21,762 nucleotides of DNA from a virus: positions 1 to 21,762 of the IMG/VR virus record IMGVR_UViG_3300042905_006493, one strand, 5' to 3'. Below, piece after piece: positions 1-20,692 of this stretch. How positions within the stretch are numbered: position 1 is the stretch's first letter; every line of letters begins with the position of its first letter. The position numbers were made by a program, and so were the translations under genes. The notes beneath the pieces were generated by a model that was given only the letters and a program-made list of their open reading frames with translations, searched no databases and was not told where the DNA came from.

Positions 1-54
1 CACGGCAAGCAGGTCGGGGCCTCGATCGACTTCACCTCCAAGATCGCCGCCTGA
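1..54 (+). CDS. C-terminal end of an unidentified rightward gene (partial)
   Basis: Only the last 17 codons are in the window. They read in frame from base 1 to a TGA at 52-54 and end in the residues DFTSKIAA. The fragment is too short for a family assignment. It is taken as real because it abuts the next gene with a 2-base gap and the same stop-start string (TGACCATG) recurs at the next junction, so the three genes look like one rightward transcription unit. Confidence 0.55.
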   Translation, partial: HGKQVGASIDFTSKIAA

Positions 55-259: not shown

Positions 260-388
260 ATGGACCCCGACATCCTCATCATCCTGCGAGGCCTCATCCA
301 GATCGCCTGGAACTTCTGGCCAGCCCTGGTCTTCATCGTCCTGGGGCTGGTCGTGGTCCTGGCCTGGGAACGGGCAGACCGAGACTAG
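260..388 (+). CDS. 42-residue single-pass membrane protein
   Basis: Small gene, starting two bases after the preceding stop. The product has a short acidic N-terminus (MDPD), a moderately hydrophobic helix (ILIILRGLIQIAWNFW), one strong transmembrane segment at about residues 21-36 (PALVFIVLGLVVVLAW) and a charged tail ERADRD. Phages often encode such miniature membrane proteins, including small holins and spanin or anti-restriction accessories, but nothing in the sequence picks one of these roles. It is the last gene of the rightward cluster, and its TAG stop overlaps the TAG stop of the giant leftward gene. It is called a gene because of its spacing, the continuity of the operon and its clear membrane-segment composition. 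Confidence 0.65.
   Translation: MDPDILIILRGLIQIAWNFWPALVFIVLGLVVVLAWERADRD
385..388. other. Convergent stop codons sharing the palindrome CTAG
   Basis: The rightward 42-residue gene ends in TAG at 386-388 and the leftward giant gene ends in TAG read from 387-385. The four bases CTAG therefore serve both stops, leaving no room for a conventional intergenic terminator. No GC-rich hairpin with a T-run was seen on either side. Confidence 0.9.
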
Positions 389-3300
389 CCGCCGCGGATC
401 ACATCGCGCATCGTCTCGCGGATGGTCTGCTTCCACTCGTCCTCGGTCGAGAAGTCCTTCCTGGTGATGCCCATGCGATCTCGCAGATAGGCGATGGTCT
501 TGCGCTTGTCCTCGGAATAGAGACTGAAGTCAAAGTTGCCGTCGTCATCGGTGTAGCGAGGGTTGTAGCCGGGCATGAATCTGGCCCCAGACAGAGGACC
601 CTGGTCAGTGTCTGGTCCCGTGACTCCGGCAAGACTCTGGTCATCCTGGGATGATCCGGGCATGAATCGAGCGTTTGGTCGGGCACTCGAGGGTGCCACA
701 AAGACTTCGCCTTCTCCAAAAGCTCCCTCCATGTGCTTTCCGGGCATGTGGGGTTGCTCGGATCGATTGATCCCGAGTTCCTCGGCAATGTCGTCGATGG
801 CCCCGTCCTCGATCACAGGAAACTTGCCCACCGGACTGATCCTGAGCACCTCGGGTTCAAGACCTCGGCGACTCTCGGCGTTGGCATAGGCGACCATGTC
901 GGCCATGTCGTAAAACTGCGTGAATGACTTTGCCTGTCGAGTCAACTGAGATCTTTTTTCATCTAGTCCGACTCCTCGATAGAGTTCGTCCATGCCGCGT
1001 TCTTGCAGATTTTCTTGAGACATTGCCAGGAGTCTCTTGAAATACGGGTTGTCTTTCAGCGTCACAAAGACAGACGACAGGGCCTTGCGGCTATCGACTC
1101 CCTTGGAGTGCATGGCAAGTCTCTGCAGACCCGCGATCATCGCGGCCGCGTCGGCATCAGGTTCTTTTGAGGTGACGACATCGCCGACACGCCACCGGTT
1201 CTTGCCAATCTTGACGGGTCTTGGAATCTTGAACGGACGGACTCCCTCGATGTCGATCAGACGGCTGGTATCCGCCGGCATGAACTTGGCCCCCGGTCCC
1301 GTGCCGCCCGTGCCCTCCTCAGAGTCGGGATTGTTTTCTAGAAACTCACTGATCTTGTCGTAGAACGCATCGAGCATGTCCGAGGGCTCGCGATACTCGC
1401 CCGGGTCGAGCATGAAATAGCCGACTGAGTCCTCCATGCCGGGCTCGACGTAGATGTTGACCCTGGTTCCTCCAAGACCAGAGGCGATCGGCTCAAACGT
1501 GTATTTGCCGAGCGACGTCGTCTCGTCGTTCATCAGGGCCTCGGCGGCCTCGTTGATCATGGCCGTCGTGATCGGCTTGGTCTTGGTCCCAGGTGCCGTC
1601 GGGGCAGACGTGGCTCCAAGAGTCGACAGGGCCTCGTAGATGGCCGCCTCGAGATCCATGGGTTCCATGTTCTGCGATCCCTGGATCGGGATGATGCCGA
1701 ACACGTTGCCGTCCTTGTCGTAGCCGGTGATCGCGACAGACCCGACCTCGGTGACGCCCTTTGCAAACTTCTTGCCGCCGACCTCGACGACCTCGATGTC
1801 CGGGTCCATGAGCTGGGCGGCCGCCTGCATCGTGAAGTCTTCCTGTTCTGTTAAGAGCGGCTTTTCATTCTTTGCCGTCGGCTTGTTCAGAAACTTTGCG
1901 GCCTCTCGGATGACGTATGCAAACGGTCCGATCGCGAAATTCTTGTCGTCCTTGATGAACTGATACATTCCGTCCTCCGCGACCTGCTTGACAATCTTGA
2001 CCTCGTCTCCCTGGCCGTTCGTGAGAACCACGGACTTCCATTTGCCATCCTTGGTGGCCTGCGCGTCGTCAAGAGTCACTCCCAGATTGTCGACAAATTT
2101 CATCAGTGCGTCGGAGTCGGCAAGAATCACGGGATCCGCCTCATTCTCCGAGGGTTTCAGATACGGGTGGCTGGGATTCGCGGCATCGAAGATCGCCAGG
2201 GCCGTCTCAGAGACAGACGGAAGGACTCCGTTGTCGGCCCAGTATTGCATGATGGCCGTCTTGTTGCCGGGCGCCCACTCGGTCACAAACGGATCGCCCT
2301 GCTCGTCCTCGTATGGATTTGTCACGGCCGTGCCCGAGTTTGTCGTGAAATACACGTGGTTGGTCCCGCCGATCTCGCCCTCTTCAAACGGTCCGACCAT
2401 GGCGGCCGCCTCGGCGACGGTCATGAGGGTGTCGTCTGCCTTGGCATATCCGACTGCCGGAGAATCCAGGGTCAGCCCCTCTTCCTCGACTTCTTCGACC
2501 ATGTCGGCCGCCTTGCGCTTCTCAAGCTTGTCGGATGCCCACTTGCCGACGTCGTAGAGATACTTGCCGAGGGCCTCGACGTCGTTGGGGCTAAGTGCGT
2601 CAATGATCTTTGCCTTGGCGAGGCCCTCAGAATTTCCGAGAAGAAGCGACTCCACGAACTCAGCCGAGGCGTCGATGTCGGACGGCGGAAGATTCACGAG
2701 GTTGGTGTCAACCCACTCCTGATCCTGCAGATTCTCAAGCAGTTGATTGACTCTGTTTCTCGCGGCCCACGGAAGATTCTCAAGAAGATTGCTGATTCCC
2801 TCACTCTGCGCGGGCATCTGCGGCTTCATCTCGGTCTTCAGATTCTGCTGCATCCAGTCCATGACGTTGCCGTAGCCGGCCTGTTTGGCGCGCATCATCG
2901 CGTAGTCGGACAGCCAGTCAACGGCGTCGCGCTTCTTGCCGCCAGGAATCTGGGCCGTGGTGAGAAGATTGCCCTCAGACACTGAGTCTCCGGCATAGAC
3001 CTTGAGAGTCGCGACCTTGCCAGATCCACCGGCATTGAGAACCGTGACATCGCCGAGCTTCAGGCCGTTGAATCCGGCGGTCATGAGAGTCTCAACAAAC
3101 TTGTTGAGGTTCGTCGGAGTCGAAACATTGGTCTTTGGCTTGAATGTGCTGCCCATGAACCAGTTCTGGTCTGCAATGGGCTTTGGCTTCGGAAGCTTGA
3201 TCTCGACATTCGGGACATTAGACAAAGACGGCTTCTTGCCGGTCACCCGCGGATCCTTGCCCTCGTTCAGGAGCATGCGAAAGAGTTTCGTGGCGTCTGT

Positions 3301-6300
3301 CTGCGCGATTCCGATGTCTCCAAAGTGGTCCTGCAGGATCAGACCGATGTGGGCATTCTGGTCCTTCTTGATGGCCTTCCAGGCGTCACTGCCCCGTCCC
3401 AGATTTCGGTGGATTCCCTCGGCCGCGTTGGCAATGTTCTCATACGGGTTCTCTCGACGGACGCCGCTTGATGACTTGCGATAATAACTGCCAACGAGAT
3501 CCTTGAGCACCTCAATGAACTGATCGGGATCAAGGGCCACGTCCTTGAAGTTCTCTGGCAGCTGTGCCTTGACGCTCTCTTCAAGATCCTGGGTGAGAGG
3601 CGCGTCGGCTCGCATGTCGGCAAACCAGGCGTCGGCCAGTTTTCCCATGGTGCCACTGACGAGCCCGCGCAGTTCACGGGGATTTCCCACGTTGGCCTTG
3701 AAGTCGAGCATCTTGGCGATCCAGCCGTATCCCTCGGCTCCCATGTAGTATTTCTTGAGCTTGTTGAAGACCGTGTTGGTGTTGTGCTGCAGGTCGTAGG
3801 CACGGTCGATCTCCTGGAACATGGCGCTGTAGGCACCCGGGTCGCGAAACTCGTTGGTCTCAATGACCTGCATGCGGCCGGTCTCTGGATCGGTCGCGAC
3901 GGCGCGGACTCGCTCGGTGGAATATGTCGGATCTGACATCTGGGCGAGATGGGCCGCGATGTCGCCCCATGGGTTTCCGCCGTAGCTCGACGACCAGTCG
4001 CCGCGACGATACAGCTGCTCGGCAAAGCGCGCCACGTCGGCGATGCCCATGCCCAGTTTCTTGCGGGCATTCTCCATCGCGACAAAAGAAGCCTTATAGC
4101 CCTCGCTCTCTCCCTTGTAGCGGCGTGGCCCCTTTTCTTTCTTGAGATCTGGCATGCCCGCTCCCTGGATCGCATACTGGCGCATGTATTCCTGATAGAA
4201 TTCAGACTCGGCCAGGTCGGTCGGCTGTCTGCGCGGAATGGCATGGCGAAGTTCGGCCGCGATCGCAAAATGCAGTGCCTTCTGGATCTTGCTGTGGAGA
4301 GACGGGATGAGCGTCTGCTTGGCCTCATCGAGGGCGTCCTGGTATTTCTCGGCGCGGACTCCGGCATAGCGCCCGGTCGGGTCTGCCGAGGGAGCATACA
4401 TGGTGGCCTCGCCACCGAACTTGCCCATGCTCCATCCAGTCGGCGGCGTCGTGATCATGGCGTTGAGCATGTAGAAGTCGGCCATGGTCTTCTTGGGATC
4501 GTCGGGAAGCGACGTGTAGCGGATGCCGGGAAGGAACCGAGGCATGGCGCCGCCGACAATGTCGTTTTCCACCTCGAGGTCCTGCGACTGGTCGAGACGG
4601 AGCGCGCCATCGGGTCTCTCTGGGAAGAAATTGATTTTCATCCTGCCGTAGTCGATCGGCATCTTGGCGGCGTTGCTGATCTGCATCTGGTTGATGCGGT
4701 CCATGCGCGCCGACATGATGATCCGGTCGGCAGACTCTTTTCCGCGCTGGGCCGGGAGCTTGGTTCTTGACGGATTGGAGGCCTCGGTCTCCTTTGAGAA
4801 CATGTTGAAGAAGTCGTTGATGCGGTTCTTCTTTTGCATTGCGATGTCGGGGTCGATGTCGAGGTTGGTCTGCCCGGCGAGTCCGCGATTGTGATTGTCG
4901 AGCACCTTCATGACGTCGGCCCAGAACTTAGAGGTGCTGCGTCCCCAAAGATTGAGGTTCTCGGGCTTCTTCTGGGCCCACAGGTTCATTTTGTCAAACA
5001 TGCGGCTGACCGATGCCGTGACGGCGAGCCAGTTGCCCTGCTTGGTGAATCGAAACCCAATCGGCACAACGTCGCGAATCTTTGGGGCGAGGGCCCGATA
5101 TCTTCCCTTCTTGAGGGAGGGCTGGTATTCCATAAGGATGCGAGTCCCGTCACGACGCTGCAAGACCTCGCTGAACGCAATCAGATTTTTCTTGACATAC
5201 GGGGTGACCAGCGTGTTGGGCAGCGCCATGATGGCCTCGACCTGGGACGGACTGAGCGTCCCGGTATAGTTGCCATTCTCGTCGCCCCTCATCCGGCCCT
5301 CGAAGCCGTCCTCTGGCGCGTTGTCGATCGCGTCCTTGATCATCTGGTCGCGCTGGCGAGCCCGCGCCTGGATCTCTTTGTTCTGGAGAATCTTGGGACT
5401 GCCGTCGGGGTTGCGGGCGATGCGGTTGTCAATGGACGCGCTCGATCCCTCCGGAAATGCCGAGAGATCAATGGCCGGGTCGATCGGCGGGAGCACGTTG
5501 CCATTCTCGTCGACAAGCTGCCCGTTGACGAGGCGGTATTCCCCGATCGCGGCCGAGTTGGCCACGGGGCTGTCCGGTATCACGATCTGTGACAGCGCGT
5601 TTCCGTCCTTGTCGCGAATGTCGAGCACCGTTTCCTTGTCCCAGATGACGTCATCCTTGTAGACCTCCTGCAGGGCCCGGTTGGTCATGAGCTCGGTGAG
5701 GCTGATCTCGATGTCATCCTGCAGCGAGTCGCCCACAAACGTCATCGTGTCGGTATATTCAAGAAGCTGCCGCTTGTATTGACGCATCATTGCAAGAACT
5801 TCAGGAATCGCGACGTTGCTTCCAAAGATTACTGAGCGGACATCGCCCTGCGAGTCAAGCTCGACTCCGACGGCCTCCAGGGCCTGGCGAAGTCGCCCGA
5901 GCATCGAGTTCTGGTTCGCGACCAGCAGCCGGTCGACGACGGCCTGTCCGGGCGAATCCAGGCCCTCGCGCATCGTCTGGTAGCCACCCTCCGAGATCGC
6001 CGCAATTTCTGACATGATTTCTTCACGAATGTATTCGCGCATCTTGTCAGTGTCTGGAAATCCTCTCTTGAATCCTTCCACTCCACCGACTGTCCGACTG
6101 CCATACAGCGGCACAAACACGGAATCGAGCACTTCATCGGTGATCACTCCAGGTGTCACGGGCATCTTGCGGACAGTCCCGTCGGGCATGAACTGATCGG
6201 CATATCTTCCAAATAAAAACTGCCGTGCCGGCTGCTGCATGTCCTGAACTTCTTTGAACTTCGACAGCGCGTGGTTCATCTCGTGCGACAGGGCATGCCT

Positions 6301-8706
6301 CAGTCCCGCGGGATTGTTCATGACATAGCCCGCGTTGATCATGACCGTCGGAGACGTGACGTTGGCCGGCCTAAGGTGCGGCGGCGTTAGAGTTTCTCCC
6401 TCGCGCTCCGTTTCCGGCGCAAGCGCGACATGCGACTGAACGGCCTGTTCAAGTTCCTTGTTGAATTTTTCGATCGTGTTTCTGGCCCGATTCAGTGTCT
6501 CGGCTTCAGATCCGCCGAGTTGTTTTCCGTCGAGCTGACTCACGATGGCCTCGGCCCGCTCAAGAGTGGCTCCCCATTTTTCACGAAGCCACGCCGACAC
6601 CTGGTCGGTATCCACGATCTGAACCTCGATGTTGTTCAGCCCCGCAGAGGCACCTGTCGCCCGGGCCTGATCGAGAACATCGATCATGATCAGCTCCACG
6701 GCGCGCCGGCGCTCATCGCGCTGCTCCTGGGTCATGTTCTTGGCAGTCTCCTGAAGAGCGGCAAGCTCGTCGGCCCTCTGCGTGATCTCCATGTCCAGGT
6801 CTGTCGTGTCCTGCTCGGCATAGTCGGCCTCGGCCTTGCGCTGAAAAAGCGCGTCAAGTTCCCTCGCGCGCGACTCGATCTGCACGTCCGGGTCGGCCAT
6901 TCTTTCGGCCTGGCGAATCAGCTTCGGATCAGTGGTCACGCGGTAGCGCTTGCGATCGGCGTCCTCGTCCAGCCTGCGATCGAGCGGGTCGATCTCGGTG
7001 ACTCTGTTGATTCGGGTGCGAAGATCTGTCGTCGGATCAAGGGCTGCCCCGATGCGCTCGGGCACGCGACCGGCCATGTAGGAGCCGATGCCAAAGCCCA
7101 CGCCGGTGGAGCGGCCAAATTCTTCTGCGGTCTCGATGTCGGCCGCCCCAATGATCCCGTTGAGCGCGGCTCCCGAGACACCCGACTTGGTGAGACTGTT
7201 CGCGAGACGCAGACCATAGTCGGCGGTGCGGGCCCGCATGACCCCGCCGCGTCCGGGCTTGATCTCGGGTTTGCCCTCGGCGACGCGCTGCTTGTTCTTG
7301 CGCTCCATCTTCTCGAGTCGCTTCTGGGCGCCGGGTCCAAAGAGGTCGCGGATCCAGTCGGCCGAGGCGGGGTCTCTTCCGAGGCGCTCGACGATGCCGG
7401 TCCGTCCGCGAATCCCGCCCTCGTCGATCTGGCGGCCGACATCGCGAAGCGTGCGGCCGACTCCCTCGACCAGCTGACCGGGTCTCTTTGTGAATGCCGA
7501 GACGATCGTGCCAGGTGCCGCCAGGAAGGTGTCGGGGCGTCCCGTGATCGCCTGACTGACTCCGGCTCCGACCTTCTCGGCTCCCTCGCCGACTTTTCGG
7601 ATTCCGATGCCGACTCCCTCGAGAGGGTTGACGCCTCGGATCGTGGGTCTGGTCACTCCGCGAACTGCGAGTCCGCCCGCGGCCTCCATGGTTCCGCCAA
7701 GGGCACTCGTGACGGGCTTCACCAGTCTGGCCGGAAGACCGACCGGAGACAGGACCTCGCCGAGCATCGAGATGTCCTCGTCTGGTCGAAATTTTGCTTC
7801 AGCGAGAAGAGATTCTTCATAGCCCCTGAGAGCCGCCTGTTTTTCTTCTGGCGTCGTGAATCCAGGTCCCGGAATTGTTCGAGGCATCCATGGCGAGGAG
7901 GGGCGGTATGGCAACTCGATGGGATTGGACATGGCGGCCGCTCCCTCGATCACGGTCCCGGCGAGCGGGTTTCTGGCCAGCAGGGTCGCGGCGCGATCAG
8001 GATTCTCCTGGATGTCCTCGGCCTCGCCGCGGCGCATGTCCTCGCGTGCGAGATAGTTGTTGAAAGATTGTTCTGGCGTGACGAGCCCGAGCTTCTCGGC
8101 GGCGCGGTCGGTGATGCTGGTCCCGAACATTGCGGCCCTCGTTGCGGCGTTGGCCGTTTCTTCCATGTCCTGCGCGACCCCGGAGGCCAGCGAGCGAACG
8201 GCCCGGTTTGCGCCGCCATACGTCTGTGACAGGGCCCGCTCATACTCGTCCGATCCGGGTTCATACTGCAGCCCGGCAAGCACGGTCTGACCGATGGGCT
8301 TGAGAGCTCCCTCATAGGCAAATTTGCCTGTTCCCCTGACGAGCTGCCCGACGGTTTCCGGGACGGCCTGAATGAAGGCACCCGCGGCCCCAAGTGCAAC
8401 ATCGGTCAGTGGCCTCGCCCGCTCTGCCTCGAAGGCGATGCGCTGTTGATCGGTCGTGAGACGCTGTCCCTCGGTCCGCATGCGGCGAACCGTCTCTGGA
8501 TCTGTCTCGGTCTCGCGCATGACCTGCGCGAGCGTCTCCTCGGGGGTCGGCTCCTTTGAGACCTCCTCGGTGACCTCGTCAAGAATCGATGCGGGCTTCT
8601 TCTTGCGGCGACGCCCGACGGCGCCGCGCGAGACTCCGCCGACCACGCCAGATTTTGGCCTGGTCTCAGACGTGACCTCGTCGGTGACTTCCTTGAGAAC
8701 GGCCAT
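385..8706 (-). CDS. Giant 2773-residue phage protein with zincin and ADP-ribosyltransferase motifs (polyvalent-protein type)
   Basis: Last gene of the leftward operon and 38% of the window. The start is fixed by a good Shine-Dalgarno (AGAGAGGA, nine bases from AGGA to ATG) and a 3-base gap from the previous stop. Visible in order: two copies of a D-E-V-T-type motif and a basic patch (GRRRKKK) in the first 45 residues; Gly/Ala-rich segments to about 450; a charged helical region about 580-780; a zinc-metalloprotease motif HEMNH at 808-812 with candidate third ligands E895/E896/E900; a middle region about 1150-1240 and a segment around H1641 (LQHNTNTVFNK) that resemble conserved parts of phage large polyvalent proteins; and an R-S-E ADP-ribosyltransferase signature at R2577, S2594-F-T and E2665-G-E2667. 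A-[KR]-F-M-P motifs lie either side of the last domain. Position and size suggest an injected virion protein with effector domains; this is inference. A virion RNA polymerase was considered and not supported. Confidence 0.93.
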   Translation of the reverse strand: MAVLKEVTDEVTSETRPKSGVVGGVSRGAVGRRRKKKPASILDEVTEEVSKEPTPEETLAQVMRETETDPETVRRMRTEGQRLTTDQQRIAFEAERARPLTDVALGAAGAFIQAVPETVGQLVRGTGKFAYEGALKPIGQTVLAGLQYEPGSDEYERALSQTYGGANRAVRSLASGVAQDMEETANAATRAAMFGTSITDRAAEKLGLVTPEQSFNNYLAREDMRRGEAEDIQENPDRAATLLARNPLAGTVIEGAAAMSNPIELPYRPSSPWMPRTIPGPGFTTPEEKQAALRGYEESLLAEAKFRPDEDISMLGEVLSPVGLPARLVKPVTSALGGTMEAAGGLAVRGVTRPTIRGVNPLEGVGIGIRKVGEGAEKVGAGVSQAITGRPDTFLAAPGTIVSAFTKRPGQLVEGVGRTLRDVGRQIDEGGIRGRTGIVERLGRDPASADWIRDLFGPGAQKRLEKMERKNKQRVAEGKPEIKPGRGGVMRARTADYGLRLANSLTKSGVSGAALNGIIGAADIETAEEFGRSTGVGFGIGSYMAGRVPERIGAALDPTTDLRTRINRVTEIDPLDRRLDEDADRKRYRVTTDPKLIRQAERMADPDVQIESRARELDALFQRKAEADYAEQDTTDLDMEITQRADELAALQETAKNMTQEQRDERRRAVELIMIDVLDQARATGASAGLNNIEVQIVDTDQVSAWLREKWGATLERAEAIVSQLDGKQLGGSEAETLNRARNTIEKFNKELEQAVQSHVALAPETEREGETLTPPHLRPANVTSPTVMINAGYVMNNPAGLRHALSHEMNHALSKFKEVQDMQQPARQFLFGRYADQFMPDGTVRKMPVTPGVITDEVLDSVFVPLYGSRTVGGVEGFKRGFPDTDKMREYIREEIMSEIAAISEGGYQTMREGLDSPGQAVVDRLLVANQNSMLGRLRQALEAVGVELDSQGDVRSVIFGSNVAIPEVLAMMRQYKRQLLEYTDTMTFVGDSLQDDIEISLTELMTNRALQEVYKDDVIWDKETVLDIRDKDGNALSQIVIPDSPVANSAAIGEYRLVNGQLVDENGNVLPPIDPAIDLSAFPEGSSASIDNRIARNPDGSPKILQNKEIQARARQRDQMIKDAIDNAPEDGFEGRMRGDENGNYTGTLSPSQVEAIMALPNTLVTPYVKKNLIAFSEVLQRRDGTRILMEYQPSLKKGRYRALAPKIRDVVPIGFRFTKQGNWLAVTASVSRMFDKMNLWAQKKPENLNLWGRSTSKFWADVMKVLDNHNRGLAGQTNLDIDPDIAMQKKNRINDFFNMFSKETEASNPSRTKLPAQRGKESADRIIMSARMDRINQMQISNAAKMPIDYGRMKINFFPERPDGALRLDQSQDLEVENDIVGGAMPRFLPGIRYTSLPDDPKKTMADFYMLNAMITTPPTGWSMGKFGGEATMYAPSADPTGRYAGVRAEKYQDALDEAKQTLIPSLHSKIQKALHFAIAAELRHAIPRRQPTDLAESEFYQEYMRQYAIQGAGMPDLKKEKGPRRYKGESEGYKASFVAMENARKKLGMGIADVARFAEQLYRRGDWSSSYGGNPWGDIAAHLAQMSDPTYSTERVRAVATDPETGRMQVIETNEFRDPGAYSAMFQEIDRAYDLQHNTNTVFNKLKKYYMGAEGYGWIAKMLDFKANVGNPRELRGLVSGTMGKLADAWFADMRADAPLTQDLEESVKAQLPENFKDVALDPDQFIEVLKDLVGSYYRKSSSGVRRENPYENIANAAEGIHRNLGRGSDAWKAIKKDQNAHIGLILQDHFGDIGIAQTDATKLFRMLLNEGKDPRVTGKKPSLSNVPNVEIKLPKPKPIADQNWFMGSTFKPKTNVSTPTNLNKFVETLMTAGFNGLKLGDVTVLNAGGSGKVATLKVYAGDSVSEGNLLTTAQIPGGKKRDAVDWLSDYAMMRAKQAGYGNVMDWMQQNLKTEMKPQMPAQSEGISNLLENLPWAARNRVNQLLENLQDQEWVDTNLVNLPPSDIDASAEFVESLLLGNSEGLAKAKIIDALSPNDVEALGKYLYDVGKWASDKLEKRKAADMVEEVEEEGLTLDSPAVGYAKADDTLMTVAEAAAMVGPFEEGEIGGTNHVYFTTNSGTAVTNPYEDEQGDPFVTEWAPGNKTAIMQYWADNGVLPSVSETALAIFDAANPSHPYLKPSENEADPVILADSDALMKFVDNLGVTLDDAQATKDGKWKSVVLTNGQGDEVKIVKQVAEDGMYQFIKDDKNFAIGPFAYVIREAAKFLNKPTAKNEKPLLTEQEDFTMQAAAQLMDPDIEVVEVGGKKFAKGVTEVGSVAITGYDKDGNVFGIIPIQGSQNMEPMDLEAAIYEALSTLGATSAPTAPGTKTKPITTAMINEAAEALMNDETTSLGKYTFEPIASGLGGTRVNIYVEPGMEDSVGYFMLDPGEYREPSDMLDAFYDKISEFLENNPDSEEGTGGTGPGAKFMPADTSRLIDIEGVRPFKIPRPVKIGKNRWRVGDVVTSKEPDADAAAMIAGLQRLAMHSKGVDSRKALSSVFVTLKDNPYFKRLLAMSQENLQERGMDELYRGVGLDEKRSQLTRQAKSFTQFYDMADMVAYANAESRRGLEPEVLRISPVGKFPVIEDGAIDDIAEELGINRSEQPHMPGKHMEGAFGEGEVFVAPSSARPNARFMPGSSQDDQSLAGVTGPDTDQGPLSGARFMPGYNPRYTDDDGNFDFSLYSEDKRKTIAYLRDRMGITRKDFSTEDEWKQTIRETMRDVIRGG
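571..1290 (-). repeat. Three A-[KR]-F-M-P motifs bracketing the C-terminal domain of the giant protein
   Basis: AKFMPA at residues 2473-2478 (bases 1276-1290 for the five-residue core), ARFMPG at 2679-2684 (658-672) and ARFMPG at 2708-2713 (571-585). The codons for A and K/R differ between copies, so the similarity is at protein level rather than a recent DNA duplication. Two looser relatives, QFMPD at 838-842 and RFLPG at 1390-1394, lie earlier. The first two strict copies flank the ADP-ribosyltransferase signature. A role as linker or protease-processing site is inference. Confidence 0.75.
697..999 (-). other. ADP-ribosyltransferase-like domain (R-S-E class) within the giant protein
   Basis: Residues about 2570-2670. 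Three motifs occur in the correct order and spacing for R-S-E ADP-ribosyltransferases: DELYRG with R2577; KSFTQFYDMADMVAYA with S2594 in the S-x-[ST] position; and GEGEVFVAP with the E-x-E pair at 2665 and 2667. Members of this family transfer ADP-ribose from NAD+ to protein residues, and in T4 such enzymes are injected with the DNA. An E-x-E pair often marks arginine-directed members. The fold has not been verified; motif order and spacing are the basis. Confidence 0.72.
6007..6285 (-). other. Zincin metalloprotease motif within the giant protein
   Basis: The residues LSHEMNHALSKF contain HEMNH (H808, E809, H812), matching the H-E-x-x-H zinc-binding signature, preceded by a helix (GLRHA). 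Downstream, EEIMSE (E895, E896, E900) could supply the third zinc ligand of a gluzincin. HExxH can arise by chance in a protein this long, but the alanine/leucine-rich helical context (ALSHEMNHAL) is typical of true zincins. The substrate could be the phage's own proteins (self-processing) or a host target. Confidence 0.6.
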
Positions 8707-11760: not shown

Positions 11761-12594
11761 CTATGCAGAATCCTCACGTCCGAGCCCGCAGTAGGCAAAA
11801 TCTGGCCTGACCCACGGAACCAGATGTGACACGTTGTTCACGTCGATGCCATACTTGGGACACCTGACAAAGGACGCCGAGGTCGGGTCGCAGCACTTTG
11901 TGCAGGTATGGAAATAATCGGGATTTGTCGAGTCCTTCCCAAGGACTCTTCGATTCTTCACGTCGTAGCGCGTCTCGTCGTGCGGCACCGAGTGTCTCTC
12001 ATGGTATTCAAAGACGTCGCCGTCGGTCCACTCGCGAATCGGATAAAGGATCGTCCCGGCGTTCTCGAGCTGGAGCCGGTCGACTCGCAGGGGAACCTTT
12101 CCAACGGTCGGGTCGTCGTCAGAGGACTTGTGGCCCATGACCATGCAGTCCCATGGAAAGTTGAATGTCCCAAGGGGACGGGCAAGAAACGTCTCGAGTG
12201 CACAGAGAAACGGCCGCCCTTCTTCTGGAACAATTGTCCCGCGCGCCACCATGAGATGCTGCGAGTTGGACATTGCCATGGAGTTGACCTGGTAGCATTC
12301 CATGATGTCGACTCTGCCCTCTTTTCCTCGACAGAGACTGACGGCCGAAGGAGCATAGTCGTGCGCCTCAAGATTCCACTCGTCGATGATCCTATTGACG
12401 AAGCGCAGCTTCTCTGGCATCCAGGGCTCTCGCCAGCAGACGACAGGAAGTTCTCTCTTCATGAGAAACTTGATCATATGCAGGACCACCATCGAGTCCT
12501 TGCCGCCCGACCAGAGAATGACCGGATTCTTTGCCGTCCTGAGCATGCGATCGAGAAAATCGATCGTGGCCTCGACACGCCGGTCGAGGGTCAT
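11761..12594 (-). CDS. PAPS reductase-family (PP-loop ATPase) protein
   Basis: The start is fixed by an ATGA overlap with the upstream stop. The 277-residue product has the PP-loop nucleotide-binding motif SGGKDSM at residues 29-35, an LYPIREWTDGDVFEY segment (183-197) typical of the adenosine-phosphosulfate reductase/CysD superfamily, a cysteine cluster CTKCC (231-235) with C245, and an end FAYCGLG (C269) that resembles the catalytic ECGLH-type tail of CysH but with Y in place of E and G in place of H. Relatives reduce or activate sulfate, or carry out other PP-loop chemistry such as nucleic-acid sulfur modification. Phages often carry this gene without a known role. Its insertion among virion genes is unusual for a metabolic enzyme. 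Whether it reduces PAPS cannot be decided from sequence. Confidence 0.9.
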   Translation of the reverse strand: MTLDRRVEATIDFLDRMLRTAKNPVILWSGGKDSMVVLHMIKFLMKRELPVVCWREPWMPEKLRFVNRIIDEWNLEAHDYAPSAVSLCRGKEGRVDIMECYQVNSMAMSNSQHLMVARGTIVPEEGRPFLCALETFLARPLGTFNFPWDCMVMGHKSSDDDPTVGKVPLRVDRLQLENAGTILYPIREWTDGDVFEYHERHSVPHDETRYDVKNRRVLGKDSTNPDYFHTCTKCCDPTSASFVRCPKYGIDVNNVSHLVPWVRPDFAYCGLGREDSA

Positions 12595-13367
12595 AGGGCG
12601 ATTCCGGCCGCCGTGATTCCGGCGCCAGCGAGAGCGCCGCCGCCTCCGATCAGGGCCCCGGCCATGGAGGCCCGATTTGCGGCTCCGGCTGCCTGCGCGG
12701 CGTTGTAGGCACTGACGTTTTGGGCGCGGCGTGCCGCTTCCATCTGGGCCGCCTGATTGAAGGCATTGGCCACGTTTCCGGTCTGAGCTCCCATGTATCC
12801 CAAAACCTGCTGACGATATGCGTTGCGAAGATTCGCGTTCTCTGCGGCCGTCTGGCTCATGATTCCAGCGAGAGAGCCCGGATCCAGGCCGGCCACGGGA
12901 GCCGGATTGGCCTGAAGATATGACGACACTCGGTCCTGCAGAGCCTGGCGGTTGGCATAATAGTCTCGCCGGCTGCGATCGGCGAGCGCCGACCGGGCAA
13001 ATCCAGATTCTGTTTTTGCTCCGGTTCCCACAACATCTGAGAGTCCCTGACGAAGCCACAGGTTGGAAAGTTCTCGGCTGGGACCCCCAGCAAAATCCTC
13101 TTCAAGCTGCTGACGCAGTCCGGCCCGCATTCTGGAAGTTTCTGGGGCAAGTTCTCGCTCAAGAGCCGCAGAATTGAGCGCATTGATGGTGGCCTCGCGG
13201 CGAGCCATTTCCTGGAGACGCGGAATGTTTTCAGTCAGTTGTTCTGGCGGCGTCTGCGCCACATATCCGGTCATGTCCCTCCCAAGACCAAGGATGTCTT
13301 GAATGCCCTGCCCATACCACTCGATGGGTTGCGCAAACTGCACTGATGGTGTTTTTCCTCCGCCCAT
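12591..13367 (-). CDS. 258-residue internal/ejection-type protein with a C-terminal glycine zipper
   Basis: Start taken at the ATG giving MGGGKTPSVQ; a TTG three codons upstream is a weaker alternative, and neither has a clear Shine-Dalgarno. Residues 40-150 are predicted helical and charged. Residues 170-230 are Ala/Asn/Gln-rich helix (NAFNQAAQMEAARRAQ). The last 26 residues (from about 233) form a hydrophobic glycine zipper, including GALIGGGGALAGAG, able to enter a membrane. Podovirus ejection proteins, which form a channel through the cell envelope, often have this Ala/Gln-rich helix plus glycine zipper. Its place after the nozzle-like gene fits the position of T7 gp14. The assignment is by composition and order, not by a defined domain. 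Its stop overlaps the start of the PAPS-reductase-family gene. Confidence 0.88.
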   Translation of the reverse strand: MGGGKTPSVQFAQPIEWYGQGIQDILGLGRDMTGYVAQTPPEQLTENIPRLQEMARREATINALNSAALERELAPETSRMRAGLRQQLEEDFAGGPSRELSNLWLRQGLSDVVGTGAKTESGFARSALADRSRRDYYANRQALQDRVSSYLQANPAPVAGLDPGSLAGIMSQTAAENANLRNAYRQQVLGYMGAQTGNVANAFNQAAQMEAARRAQNVSAYNAAQAAGAANRASMAGALIGGGGALAGAGITAAGIAL

Positions 13368-14055: not shown

Positions 14056-17000
14056 TCAGGTGCAGGGAAGTTCAATGAGGGCCCGGGCATTGGCAAGCGC
14101 CAGGGCCTGCGTGTCAGAATCGGCCTGAGAGACAGTGCCACGATGGCGTCCGGTGACAATTACGGTCTGGCGGGTGACGAGGGCTGCTCCCGTCGTCTGG
14201 TCGATACGACCGAATTTCTCATAGGAATCCGTGTTGCCATTGTAGGACGTGAAATCGCCCGCCGCAAAGAAAAATGTCCCGGTCGAAGGAAGCATGAGGG
14301 CCCGGACAGTCGCGTTGAATCCGGTTCCGGGATTGAATGCCCCGACGGCCGCTCCCAGTGCCGTGGTCTTGACGATCCGCGGGACGGCGACAGAGTTGTA
14401 GGTCGTGAAGTTGCCCCCGAGAATGACAGTTCCATCTGCGAGGATGAGAATGGCTCGGGCCGCGGTGTCGAGTCCGGTCCCCACATTGTAGGTCGAGTCC
14501 ACGGTCCCGTCGGTGTTGAGTCTCACCAGATCCTTGGCAGAATTGGCGCCGTCAAACGAGACAATGATCTTGCCATCGGCCTGCAGGGCCATCGAGGCAA
14601 ATCCGGGATCGGCGACCGTGACCTCATACGGCGTGAATGCCGGATCCTCGACGCCCGTCGTGAGAAGCCTCGCCACACGGACCTTTCCGGCGACAGACTC
14701 GTATCCGGCGACATAGACAAGGTTTCCGGTCTGGGGAATGAGAGCAAAAATCTTCGTGAATCCCGTGGGAAGATAATCGGCATCTCTGACACCGTTTGCC
14801 TCGATCAGAATGATCGGCTTTGCCGCGGCGACTGAGTCGTATGTAGTGAATGTCCCGCCGATCACGAGAGATCCTGCAGACGAGCCGAGCGCCGCGGTCG
14901 CCACCACAAAGCGCGTGCCCGAGCCTGGCTCGGTCACATGGAGACGGTGCCCGGTCGCGGAGGCCGTGATGGTGACGGTGTCGGACGCGACTGTCGCGAT
15001 GAACTGCGCGTCGGCATCGACCGCAAGCTGTATCTTAGTTGCAAGCTGCGCGTCCGTGTCAGAATTCTGCATGTCGACCTCGAGCAGGCGACCGCCAGAC
15101 GGAACCGCCGGAGGACTCGACGAGTTGTTGTGGTCCATCCATACTCGCACGGGCCCATTTGCGTCTCCGAGATCAAAGTATGATCCGCCGTGGGCTGAAA
15201 TGACCTGAACCGTTGAGACCTCGGCGAGAGCAGACGGAAGAATGCAGGCGGCGGTCGGGGCCGTGTTGAATCCCGTCCCAAAGGTCACGGTCGTGTCGAG
15301 CGCCCCGGCCGACGTCAACCGCGCGATCCGAGTTCTGGCGCCATTGTTGTATTCGCTGAATTCTCCGAGAGCATAGATGCCGTTTGTGTCATTGAGCAGC
15401 ACGTTGATCTGTTCGGAACTCGGCTCTGCCCCGAAGTTTGACACGAAGCCGTCTCCCTGCGTGAAAGTCAGGCTCCGGATTCCCGCAGAGGTTCTCTCGG
15501 TGATCTTGCCCTGGTTGGTCGTGTTGTCTCTCCAGAACTGGCCCCCGAGAATGACACGGCCGTCAGACAGTCTCGTCATGGCGAGGGCGTCATCGTTGAG
15601 CTCAGAATAACAGTGGCGGGTCACGGACTGCACCGAGTCATAATAGCACGGATAGATCGTCCTGAGATAGTCGGCCTGTGCCTGGGCGGCCGTCTGGGCG
15701 GACGCGAGTGCCTGCGCGTCGGCGTCAGCCTGCGAGATTCTTGACCTGTATGTCGACGTGGCCGTGACGGTCAATGGCCCGGTAGTCACCGATCCGACCG
15801 GACAGGTCAGGGTGACAGTCGCGGACCTCGTCGAGGCCCACGCGTTGCCTCCGACCTCGTAAAGATCCTCGAGAGCCACAAAGCCCTCCTCGCGGCTGTA
15901 GATGTGGTTCCTGCCGTCCTCTCCGACCAGGCAGACATTGGTCTCGTTTTCCTCGCAGCGTCCCTCGGCGCGCTCGGCCCACGGTTCCATGAAGATCCTG
16001 ATCGATTCCACGGCCATCTGGCCGCACCATCTGACGAGAATGCTGAAGGCCTTGTCGATGTTCTCGGAATACTCGGACTCGCAGGTCGGGCAGCCGTCGG
16101 ACGGCAGGGCATTCTCGGTTGTGACCCGGCGGCTCTGTTTCTTGAGACCGTCAAGGATGCCGAGCTCAGATGGCGGAATGTCGGCGCCCGCGGAGGCCGC
16201 CGTGATCGGAGCGATGATGCGCTTGCAGAGAACTGGCTTGTAAGCGCCGCGGATCCCACGGTAGTTTGCCGTGACATAGGCGTCTCCGGCAATTTCCATC
16301 AGGTTGATGTCGGCATACTGGAACGACTTGAGATCGTGGCCGTCTCCGATTAGGCGCGTCTCGAACTCGCAGAAGATCGGCCTGGCAAAGTCAATCCTTG
16401 TGAAGTCACTCCCAAGCTCGAAAAACGTGTCCTCCCTCTCCGGCATGAAGGCCTCCCACACATGGTTGTGGCTCCCGTCAGAGAGGGCCCGGTAGTCGAC
16501 TGATGCCGCGAAGGCCCGGCGCTTTCCGTCGATCACGGGAGATGCCCACTGGATCGGGCGAATTCCCGTCCACACTCCAGACCATGCCGGAATTTTTTCA
16601 GAGGAAAATTCGCTCAGCGGCGAATAGTCAAGCACAAATGTCTCAGAATTCAGATTCTGTCCGATCGGCATCGACATTAGCAGATAGTTCTCGAAGCTAA
16701 GGCCGCAGATCATCGATGAATCATCATTGAGAAATTGCTTGCTGAAGGCCATTTCGGCGTCACGGTAATTGATCTGGCTCGTCAGGTTGCTCGATGCCGC
16801 GGCGTCAGAGGCGACCAGGCCTCCCGGGCTATACCACCACATGAGTCCTGCCTGGAACACGATGCTGCGTCCCGCGATGCAGCCCGTGCTCGGAAATAAA
16901 ATCGACTGCATTCCTTGGGTCGTGGCCCACTGGGCGCGATCGCGGATGCCAGAGAGCACAATCTCGCTGCGCTCGTCGGTGAAGACCACGACAACCTCGA

Positions 17001-17715
17001 CCCGCTCTTCTCCAATGAAGCTTGTCAGTCCGGTAATCTGTTTCGGAAAAGAAAAATCGCCTCGGCCCTCGCCCTCGACTCGCTCGGTGAACTTGACCGG
17101 GTCAAACAGATCAGACGCCAGGAGAATATTGCCGCGCGCAACCCAGAGACGTCCTCCAGAGAAGGTCATCCAGGTCCCGGTCGGAGTCTCGAGACTCGGG
17201 GCCGCCTCGACGAGATGCCGCGATTCCTCGCCGTCCCAGTATGCGGCCGGGGTCACGCCGTCCTGGATCATCAGCACGTTGTGCGATGGCACGATCTGGA
17301 GTGTCTGATCGGGCGCGGTCATGACGGTCTTTTCGGCGACCGCAAAGTGGATCATGTCTGCATCGGCAGAAAACTGAAGACTCTTGAGGCAAAACTCTTC
17401 CCAGAATCTTGGCTGCTCGAGAGGAAACGGCAAAAAATAAATCTTGCCATCTACCGCAAAGACCAGGTAATCGTCGCGACGCCCGTTCTTGGTCACCTGA
17501 AAGTGAGCCATTCCCTGAAAGTTTCCTTCTGGCAGGGTCAGGCGCATGCGGAAACCAGGTCTCGTCTGGATGACGCCGCCACGATTAACGACATTGACTC
17601 CACGGCGATACTGGTCCTGGCGAAGAAACCACGGGTGCCGGACAGAGTTCATTCCTGACATCCATCCGGCGTCGACGCTCACGAGCCGCCCCTGGGTTAT
17701 CGCGGGAGATTGCAT
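14056..17715 (-). CDS. 1219-residue tail nozzle-like protein fused to a delta-60-type beta-propeller
   Basis: Starts one base after the previous stop. The N-terminal half (about 1-560) resembles the T7 gp12-type tubular tail (nozzle) protein: RRGVNVVNRGGVIQTRPGF at 37-55, then beta-rich segments with many W/F/G strands. A first SQADADAQA repeat at 661-669, inside a Cys-flanked segment like DUF5977, precedes a region (708 to about 1180) of delta-60-like repeats. I count seven core strands of the type GGQF, LGEF, GGTF, AGYE, VSFD, GGNF and AGDF, enough for a seven-blade propeller. A further domain (about 825-940; VRVWMDHNNSSSPP and later strands) interrupts it between the second and third blades. 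A second SQADSDTQA is at 1196-1204 near the end. T7 gp12 is about 800 residues, so the extra part is an extension. A role in receptor contact is inferred. Confidence 0.9.
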   Translation of the reverse strand: MQSPAITQGRLVSVDAGWMSGMNSVRHPWFLRQDQYRRGVNVVNRGGVIQTRPGFRMRLTLPEGNFQGMAHFQVTKNGRRDDYLVFAVDGKIYFLPFPLEQPRFWEEFCLKSLQFSADADMIHFAVAEKTVMTAPDQTLQIVPSHNVLMIQDGVTPAAYWDGEESRHLVEAAPSLETPTGTWMTFSGGRLWVARGNILLASDLFDPVKFTERVEGEGRGDFSFPKQITGLTSFIGEERVEVVVVFTDERSEIVLSGIRDRAQWATTQGMQSILFPSTGCIAGRSIVFQAGLMWWYSPGGLVASDAAASSNLTSQINYRDAEMAFSKQFLNDDSSMICGLSFENYLLMSMPIGQNLNSETFVLDYSPLSEFSSEKIPAWSGVWTGIRPIQWASPVIDGKRRAFAASVDYRALSDGSHNHVWEAFMPEREDTFFELGSDFTRIDFARPIFCEFETRLIGDGHDLKSFQYADINLMEIAGDAYVTANYRGIRGAYKPVLCKRIIAPITAASAGADIPPSELGILDGLKKQSRRVTTENALPSDGCPTCESEYSENIDKAFSILVRWCGQMAVESIRIFMEPWAERAEGRCEENETNVCLVGEDGRNHIYSREEGFVALEDLYEVGGNAWASTRSATVTLTCPVGSVTTGPLTVTATSTYRSRISQADADAQALASAQTAAQAQADYLRTIYPCYYDSVQSVTRHCYSELNDDALAMTRLSDGRVILGGQFWRDNTTNQGKITERTSAGIRSLTFTQGDGFVSNFGAEPSSEQINVLLNDTNGIYALGEFSEYNNGARTRIARLTSAGALDTTVTFGTGFNTAPTAACILPSALAEVSTVQVISAHGGSYFDLGDANGPVRVWMDHNNSSSPPAVPSGGRLLEVDMQNSDTDAQLATKIQLAVDADAQFIATVASDTVTITASATGHRLHVTEPGSGTRFVVATAALGSSAGSLVIGGTFTTYDSVAAAKPIILIEANGVRDADYLPTGFTKIFALIPQTGNLVYVAGYESVAGKVRVARLLTTGVEDPAFTPYEVTVADPGFASMALQADGKIIVSFDGANSAKDLVRLNTDGTVDSTYNVGTGLDTAARAILILADGTVILGGNFTTYNSVAVPRIVKTTALGAAVGAFNPGTGFNATVRALMLPSTGTFFFAAGDFTSYNGNTDSYEKFGRIDQTTGAALVTRQTVIVTGRHRGTVSQADSDTQALALANARALIELPCT

Positions 17716-17716
17716 C

Positions 17717-20692
17717 TCAGTCCATCCAGTCGTCGGGCCTCGTCGTCACGTCAGCGTTGATCTGGAATGTTGGGGCGCGCGGTCCGTCGAGCGCGCGATT
17801 TCGCTTGTTGAGATATTCCACGGCAATCAGACGATACTGCTCTGATTCAGCAACGAACTTCTTGAAGAGCAGCTCCTGCGATTGGACCATCATTAGAATC
17901 GCCATGCGCGAATCTAGATTTATGAAATCCCTCTCGGTCAGCACGTCAAAGGCGCGGCGACGATATTTCAAGCGGACCGACGTGGCCGACTTGTTGATCC
18001 GGATGCGGCGATACGCCGGCGTGGTCTCAGTCGGGTGCAGGTCACCAAGAAGCGCAATGTTTCCGGTCCTGGACGTGTCCCAGGCATAGAGCCGGATGTA
18101 TCCGTCGGTCACCGGCTTCTCGATGGAAGAGACGGTCTTGACCGACACCGGGGCACGAGAGACCACGACTCGCTGGGATCCGGTTCCGGTCGACAGAAAG
18201 GTGATGCGCCCGGTCGTCGCCGGGGCCGCGTTGGCCTGCGCCTGCGACGGATACAGCTCGATCTGATCGTCATCGATGGACCTGGCATAATAGGTGGTCG
18301 ACAGCAAGAGCGGCGACGGTAGCGCCGAGCTCGTCGTGACCGTCAGCGCCGTTCCGGTCGCAAATCCGTGGTCTGGGATGTCAAGCGATGTCGCGGCCGG
18401 CGTCGTCATTGAGCGAGAGATCAGCATCTCATGAATCCCGGATCCGACCGTCGTCAGCGGAATCAGGACGTTTCCGGTCGTGTAGACCTCGATGGCGTCT
18501 CCGACCACGTTGGCGCGATAGTCGGTTCCGGTCGCGAGCGGGGCCGGAAGAGTCCCATCGGTCGTGAAGCGAACAATTGTGAGATTCTCAAGAAATGCCG
18601 TGAAGTCGACATCAAAACTGTTGTCGCGGGGCGACACGGTCACGGACCTTGCCCTCGAGAGATACAATGTCTCGGCTCCCGCGGTCGTGGCCGAGAATCG
18701 TCCCGTCACCGTGGGAGGAGCGGCGTTCGCATTGATTGCCGAGTCGTAGATCTCGACGAGAGAATTACTGATTTTGCGGACGTAATACAGGGCTGACTGA
18801 TCAACCTGTGACGGGGCCGTGCCCGGCAGGATTCCCGGCGTGTAAAATCGGACGGCGTCGCCCGTCGAGAGGGCCGTGGCATCCACCGACCACTGCGAAA
18901 GAAACCCGACCGAGAATGATCTTGAAATGACCACATAGAGCTGTCCGGTGCCGCCGGAACTGATCGCGACCGGATTCGGGATCGTGTCGTTGAGTGAGAA
19001 CGTTGTCGAGGTCAGCGGGGCCTCGCCGCGATACACAGTCTCGGCCTTGATGGGATCAGGAAGTGTTCCATTTGTAGTGAAACGAACAAAACTGCCTCCC
19101 TGGGCCGTAAAGGTCACCGTCGGGGCCGAGGTGTAGCCGGTTCCTCCGGTGATGACGCGAATCGACACAACGGCACCGCCCGCGACGATTGCCTCGGCCG
19201 TTGCGCCGGTGCCTCCACCTCCCGAGATGGTGACCTTTGGCGAGACGTTGTAGGCACTTCCGCCGGCCCCGACCGAGATGGCCACGACAGTCTGACTTGA
19301 AAGCACCGCGGTCCCGGTCGCGCCCGATCCGCTGGGGGAACTAAGATTGTGCGGACTCACAGTTGTCACGATGCTGCTGCCGCCGCCGGCCACGGTCGCC
19401 GCGATGCGCTTCACGAGCGAATTTGTCCCGACTCCCAGGGAAGTCAGCGCAATCGGGTTGGCTCCCGTGGACGCATCGGCCGAGGTGGAGTGCAGCGAGA
19501 CCGACGTGGCGCTGAGAGTCCTCACAAAATACGGCGTGTTGGCGATCAACGGCTGCGGGAGTTCTCCGCCAGAATTCGAGGCCGTCACCTGGTCTCCCGT
19601 GACAAAATTGTGCTCCAGCGTGAAGGTCAGCTGGGTCAGCGGATACATCGGCTTGAGAATCCGCGCCTCGACAGACGTTCCAGGAGTCGTGGCATTGACC
19701 GGGTTGGTGGCATTCTCGCGGTCGCTGTCGTCGTTGTAGACGATGAAGCGGTCGGTCGTGATCGGGGAGGCCGGATACGTGCGGGCCGCCTCGAAGGGGA
19801 GCGGAAGTGGCAATCCAGTGAAAGCGACGAGGTCTCCCTCAGAGATGAGATTGGCACCAGAGGTCACAAAGCAGGTCCTGGCCCGGACAGGGCGCGTCTC
19901 GCGGAGTGTGATCGAGGCCGTCGGATCGACCGTTGAGAACAGAATCGGTCGCTGGTTTGTCTGGGCATCAAGTCGGGTTGCATAAAGCAGCACGCGGGTC
20001 GAGTCGACGACCCTGATGAAATAGAATGCCCCGTTGATCAGGGGCTGCGGGATGGAACCTGACGACAGCTGCACCTGCATCTGGGCGGCCGTGGCGAGAC
20101 CGTGCGCCGTTCCGGAGACGAGCCGCCCGGTCGGCGTGGTCTCGAAAAGACGAAGAAACGGCACGGACGTCGGGGCGGCCGTGGGAGCTCCCGCGACGTT
20201 GACTGCAAAAGTCTCAGTCCCGTCGATCCAGTCGCCATTCTCGAGCTGCTGCCTCAGTTCTCGGCCATTCGCGTCTGTCCCAAGGACACGCACGACGACG
20301 CCAATGTCGGCCTCCGAGTCACAGCGGGCGATCAGGGGACCAGGGGTCCCGATGTCCATGAAGGAGGGAACGGTCCCGGAATCGTCCCACGCCCACGGGA
20401 CGACGTGGTCGTCTGTCAGTCCGTCGCCATTGAGATGGAAGCGGAAAAATTCGTCTCGCATGAAGGCCGGAATGCCATTGACGGCAACTGCCAGCGGTGT
20501 CTCGACCTCGCGCGGAAGAGTGACGGTCTGACCGTCAGAGAGGGTCATGATGTCAAGGGCCCCGATGTTCGCGGCCCAGTCGCCCTCGTCCTGGAGGGCT
20601 CGAACTGCCTCGGAGATGCGACGAAGGGCCTTCTGCCGGTCGCACCGACCGAGGACCTCGATCACCTGGTCAATGATCTCCGAGACGAACAT
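17717..20692 (-). CDS. 991-residue adaptor-like virion protein expanded by tandem beta repeats
   Basis: Start at the ATG giving [10 protein letters not shown], seven bases after the preceding stop; earlier in-frame starts lie inside the upstream gene. Residues 1-150 (helical: [20 protein letters not shown]; then GDWAANIG and a strand TLPREV) and the last 100 residues ([28 protein letters not shown], a helical tail) look like one conserved phage module, possibly a head-to-tail adaptor. Between them, about 170-890, lie roughly seven repeats of 70-90 residues with the pattern L-P-x-P-L, x-T-x-Y-x-x-R, and a G-rich turn. Two [11 protein letters not shown]-like beta stretches are within. Such repeats are common in phage tail-surface proteins. 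It precedes the nozzle-like gene, as T7 gp11 precedes gp12. Adaptor identity is inferred from order and N-terminal character. Confidence 0.88.

Follow-up and report, generated by a model that had tools for sequence, protein, structure and literature searches.

Phage tail nozzles are usually regarded as conserved plumbing, with host contact left to the fibers. The gene considered here encodes a protein that resembles such a nozzle and carries a whole additional β-propeller at its C-terminal end. The window, that is the whole stretch of DNA analyzed, is a 21.8-kb IMG/VR fragment, and positions 14056-17715 on its minus strand form a single open reading frame encoding 1219 amino acids. Copies 99.9-100% identical to the window protein are found in contigs of three other, differently numbered IMG/VR datasets (L001, L003, and L007), and the protein is therefore not an assembly fusion. 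The gene and its upstream neighbor contain the following features:

15916..17715, minus strand: residues 1-600, conserved nozzle-like core, with relatives in at least 289 IMG/VR stretches and weak PHROG, Foldseek, and LUZ24-profile matches
15646..15840, minus strand: residues 626-690, first and full copy of a DUF5977-like hairpin and helix module, with SQAD at residue 661 (Pfam, AF2, and HMM)
14164..15618, minus strand: residues 700-1184, seven-bladed delta-60 (DUF5122) propeller (Pfam, AF2, and Foldseek)
14887..15246, minus strand: residues 824-943, domain inserted inside blade 3, absent in relatives of class C and nested in others
14059..14169, minus strand: residues 1183-1219, half copy (strand and helix) of the DUF5977-like module, with SQAD at residue 1196 (AF2 and module HMM)
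17717..20692, minus strand: upstream neighbor, adaptor-like by position, whose conserved ends flank inserted β-repeats

From gene order and fold we infer that the product is very probably the nozzle of an uncultured short-tailed phage (podovirus). The adaptor-like gene is followed by the nozzle-like gene, some small genes, and the gene for a 2773-residue protein, as in T7 genes 11-12-13..16. The window shares this order with 19 related loci, and in these the gene type found at 17717-20692 is always located immediately upstream of the nozzle gene. This neighbor would be the adaptor; its two ends gave no significant match when searched alone against PHROGs. Between them lie several hundred residues of repeated β-modules resembling repeats in many phage structural proteins, and the putative adaptor is thus enlarged like the nozzle.

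The AF2 model of the N-terminal 700 residues is poor (pLDDT 51.5). When this low-confidence model was used in Foldseek, the nozzles of PhiM1 (6.9e-4), T7, and GP4 were listed among many other propellers (nozzle PDB entries 8vbx, 7ey7, 9jyz, and 8jov). The core also matches phrog_511, labeled 'internal virion protein' (best 2.4e-5, 16/21 members), and phrog_8040, labeled 'head closure Hc3' (best 0.0062, 6/21 members), both weakly; P22 gp10 is likewise labeled Hc3. Ten aligned LUZ24-type nozzles match the core N-terminus to N-terminus (19-65 to 11-57, E 0.028) with a score of 26.9, where the highest-scoring of 11 decoys reached 22.7, which is suggestive as far as sequence comparison goes.

Other sequence tests were negative. 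The core profile had no match in the PDB up to an E-value of 10, and neither hhalign of the core against the T7 and PhiM1 nozzles nor HMM and hhalign rank tests over the ORFs of six phages gave significant results. Since the SU10 and T7 nozzles also share no detectable sequence similarity (PMC9509320), these failures weigh little against a nozzle. It is rather unlikely that residues 1-600 instead constitute some other virion protein containing a propeller. The label of phrog_511 and the non-significant profile tests against nozzles would fit such a protein, but the gene sits between the putative adaptor and a giant internal protein as in T7, Foldseek returns nozzles, and the N-to-N match to the LUZ24 family beats all decoys. 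The nozzle-like N-terminal half proposed by the earlier sequence-only reading is thus backed by gene order and the fold search, while proof from sequence was not obtained.

Two further genes of the cluster deserve mention. The 2773-residue protein (window 385-8706) contains a zinc-protease-like motif, HALSHEMNHAL, recognized by eye, and much of its N-terminal half is homologous to giant proteins of related phages. It is likely an internal or ejected virion protein. The frame at 11761-13059 contains a PAPS-reductase-like stretch (PF01507, 5.4e-7) amid the structural cluster; in more distant relatives mostly just the C-terminal ~270 amino acids are conserved.

When it comes to the C-terminal half, the propeller is clearly recognized. 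Its sequence contains seven recognizable delta-60 repeats, in line with the seven delta-60-like strands noticed in the sequence-only reading, and the Pfam profile DUF5122 (delta-60, PF17164) matches at 4e-23 with 81.8 bits against a cut-off of 27. DUF5977 is matched at residues 629-682 (5.6e-9, 36.9 bits against a cut-off of 25). Of the profiles proposed for the two parts, only TIGR02608 fell short; it has an E-value of 8e-13, but its 48 bits are under the cut-off of 76.5. An AF2 model of residues 620-1219, built from a 16-sequence alignment, has a pLDDT of 84.6 and a pTM of 0.73. It displays a hairpin, a 26-residue helix (662-687), repeated four-strand blades, and a final strand and helix; structure prediction thus returned the propeller that had been expected. 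A Foldseek search with the propeller gave propellers throughout, the best PDB match being CylK (7roo, 1.2e-9), and a viral match to the uncultured-phage protein A0A6J5M436, annotated 'Delta-60 repeat' (1.7e-12). Weak PDB profile matches to FtsZ and alcohol dehydrogenase were dismissed as chance.

The SQAD motifs at residues 661 and 1196 are indeed found at both borders of the propeller, where each begins a helix, the first in a full copy of a module and the second in a half copy of it. An HMM of this module (residues 630-690) recognized the C-terminal end of every one of the 66 complete short relatives (best E 9e-14) and 31 of 32 long-form ends at E<0.01 (median 6e-6; the set includes one end at a truncated contig), while no reversed decoy came below 0.01. 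In the short relatives DUF5977 is under the Pfam cut-off, yet it is detected by the family HMM. The propeller is therefore flanked by one complete and one half copy of the cap that ends the C-terminus in this family, each marked by an SQAD motif. As none of the 66 complete short relatives lacks the DUF5977-like module, this module is ancestral in the phage family and belongs to no capture; the propeller alone is the addition. The border repeats could result from an insertion with partial duplication, or from a propeller arriving with its own half module.

Relatives of the core are encoded in at least 289 IMG/VR stretches. None were found in the phage collection or among cultured phages, nor in bacterial genomes scanned with the core as query. 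The proteins fall into four length classes. Class D proteins (about 700-760 amino acids) stop right after the DUF5977-like module in the relatives examined, class C (about 1090-1140) adds a propeller that lacks the insert, and the propeller contains one insert in class A (about 1220) and two in class B (about 1340). Class D keeps the neighboring genes and provides the natural control that lacks the extension. No separate propeller gene was found in the loci of the short relatives examined, and the propeller is seen only fused to the nozzle-like gene, in one clade.

In a tree of the cores the propeller forms, together with one short member (L054), make up a single clade of nine with strong support, while the remaining 27 representatives (clade II) are all short. 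The unconstrained tree nests L054 inside the propeller forms, and a tree constrained to keep these together is not rejected (AU p 0.134). A single gain of the propeller, and one gain followed by one loss in L054, are thus equally open.

A 65.7-kb relative (G002, comprising L034, L129, and L130) encodes a polymerase, a helicase, and a primase that match PHROGs or Pfam. Its portal-, capsid-, and terminase-sized frames matched nothing convincing in PF03237, PHROGs, or Pfam, and structurally this lineage seems remote from cultured phages. The cultured, 62-kb Caulobacter phage KcrB (gp068c/gp069c; L155) has a LUZ24-type nozzle following a gene of ~790 amino acids, which is perhaps an enlarged adaptor. 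KcrB is a possible cultured model.

The inserted domain at about residues 825-940 noticed in the sequence-only reading is present, but it is not placed between blades two and three. It splits blade 3 between the first two strands of that blade (about 824-943). Across the relatives the insert is absent, single, or nested in itself, nested copies being found in L005/6/8/9/12/14 and in L015 (genes at, e.g., L005:9861-13886, L008:7139-11164, and L015:3564-6710). In class B the insert profile is matched in the order 2-60, a complete 8-123, and then 61-122, that is a second copy within the first. The nested insert of L015 is split at profile position 38-40, which differs from class B, and the two nestings are therefore independent self-insertions of the same domain. 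They constitute a clear case of a virion-protein domain growing by internal insertion.

The insert has also been exchanged recently between strains. The window and L010 have cores that are 95.8% identical, while their inserts are only 65.5% identical. The opposite is seen with L002, where three of 77 four-fold sites differ in the insert compared to 110 of 291 in the core (p=2e-10). The DNA identity to L002 is 96-100% inside window positions 14473-15195 (residues ~841-1080) and about 82-93% outside, and this stretch is a recent recombination tract between the two. Outside the family the insert resembles solely phage tail-sheath and baseplate proteins: it has a weak match to the tail-sheath family phrog_165 (7.8e-4), an E-value of 0.5 to the sheath of Curvibacter phage TJ1, and a clearer match (43%, 7e-19) to a protein that by eye reads as baseplate-J-like.

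All segments of the gene are under purifying selection, with dN/dS mostly 0.02-0.2, the estimates being noisier in short segments and in recently exchanged tracts. Divergence is faster in the propeller and the insert than it is in the core: when class A is compared with class C, identity is 64-67% for the core and 34-44% for the propeller. The faster divergence of the propeller suits an exposed accessory domain, and fits any such domain, not only a receptor binder.

The location of the propeller in the virion may be deduced by analogy. In the T7 nozzle the C-terminal domain makes the platform facing the adaptor, next to the fiber dock, while the tip is formed by an excursion of blade 3 (PMC6702177). 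The SU10 nozzle follows the same plan, with its C-terminus in the adaptor-side platform (PMC9509320). If the core follows the T7/SU10 plan, the propeller is therefore more likely to sit at the collar than at the tip.

This bears on the proposal of the sequence-only reading that a bacterial adhesin has been captured and placed at the tail tip. Two facts speak for such an origin: bacterial proteins are known to contain delta-60 repeats, and DUF5977 is counted among the stalk domains of fibrillar-adhesin-like proteins (PMC8286594). Nevertheless, the proposal did not hold up and is now quite improbable, as the DUF5977-like module is ancestral in the phage family (66/66 complete short relatives), delta-60 propellers also occur in unrelated phage proteins (RAS14 and BFVD matches), the modules that the insert resembles are those of tail sheath and baseplate, and the C-terminus of the solved T7 and SU10 nozzles is located at the adaptor-side platform and not at the tip. 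Pfam reported no secretion or anchor domain in the 1219-residue protein, the frame of which begins with the nozzle-like core. No bacterial donor was found; the bacterial genomes were scanned with the core only, so this says little about the origin of the propeller.

The reading we favor is that of a podovirus nozzle with an accessory host-contact propeller at the level of the collar, and as a whole we consider its chances to be about even. Below the adaptor, residues 1-600 would build the hexameric DNA-ejection channel typical of nozzles. A strand-helix module of the DUF5977 type caps the C-terminus throughout the family, and one clade adds after this cap a seven-bladed delta-60 propeller that is closed by a second, partial copy of it. 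With six copies per virion, six extra propellers would surround the tail, most likely at the platform or collar, and their job would most likely be an accessory contact with the host surface beside separate fiber genes. We infer host contact from the faster evolution of the propeller and its exchange between strains, both of which are most marked in the blade-3 insert. A nozzle touching a receptor also has a precedent, as TTPA and TTPB of OWB bind Vp0980 (PMC7241545), and this, alongside the separate fiber-like genes, likewise favors an accessory head. In the same phage a region upstream of the adaptor (L007:1-6400) encodes a fiber end with an S74-type chaperone, a glycine-rich protein of 445 amino acids, a peptidase-like lysis protein, and phosphoesterase-like genes, all assigned by eye; a LamG-like, fiber-like protein was seen by eye in relative L034.

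The appended propeller might instead be structural, docking tail fibers or bracing the adaptor-nozzle collar without touching the host. This is the main alternative, possible though we hold it doubtful. The expected location adjoins the fiber dock, nozzle and adaptor both bear variable β-insertions in this lineage, and purifying selection acts throughout. Nevertheless, the majority of the family has the same flanking genes and manages without a propeller, and swapping and nesting of inserts is more typical of exposed parts that do not bear load. An enzyme acting on host polysaccharide is highly improbable, even if the top fold match, CylK, is an enzyme and propeller glycosidases are found lower in the list. 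The propeller matches are generic, with GPCR G-beta, lectins, and NHL domains scoring similarly, and to our knowledge DUF5122 has no known activity.

The host-contact propeller could be taken one step further, to a crown of six replaceable propellers at the tail collar in which the blade-3 loop is a dedicated site of diversification and a second determinant of host range beside the fibers. We put this forward as speculation, tentative and on balance improbable. If true, strains swap or lose one small domain at the blade-3 loop, or stack it within itself. The large uncultured lineage is in any case a natural experiment, with nozzles that have or lack the propeller and carry zero, one, or nested inserts, and it becomes directly testable whether nozzles carry variable receptor-binding heads.

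Among known systems, gp12 of T7 (tail tubular protein B; 7ey7, 9jyz; PMC6702177) is similarly encoded after the adaptor and before the internal virion proteins, and it has an all-β core containing a propeller with a weak fold match. It is without a second, C-terminal propeller and has no detectable sequence similarity to the present core. The SU10/LUZ24 nozzles (phrog_3287; PMC9509320) are similar in core length (513 amino acids in LUZ24), and their N-terminal P-x-LP...G-NVRF-x-G motif aligns N-terminus to N-terminus, although the match is not significant. SU10 differs in that its channel propeller carries Ig domains between the second and third blades, and it has no second propeller at the C-terminus. 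The muzzle gp44 of crAss001 (PMC10172136) is an enlarged hexameric nozzle with extra domains too, Ig domains being placed in blade 3 and between it and blade 2; its extra parts are Ig and crass folds within one propeller, whereas here a whole second propeller is added. DUF5122 propellers in a phage gene are found in WAX21589.1 of Stenotrophomonas phage RAS14 (7.2e-49), but this is a jumbo phage protein without fusion to a nozzle-like core. In the literature searched, which lay mostly outside the subscription journals, we found no nozzle described as having a second propeller. A tail nozzle with an extra C-terminal propeller would be a variation on nozzles already known to carry extra domains.
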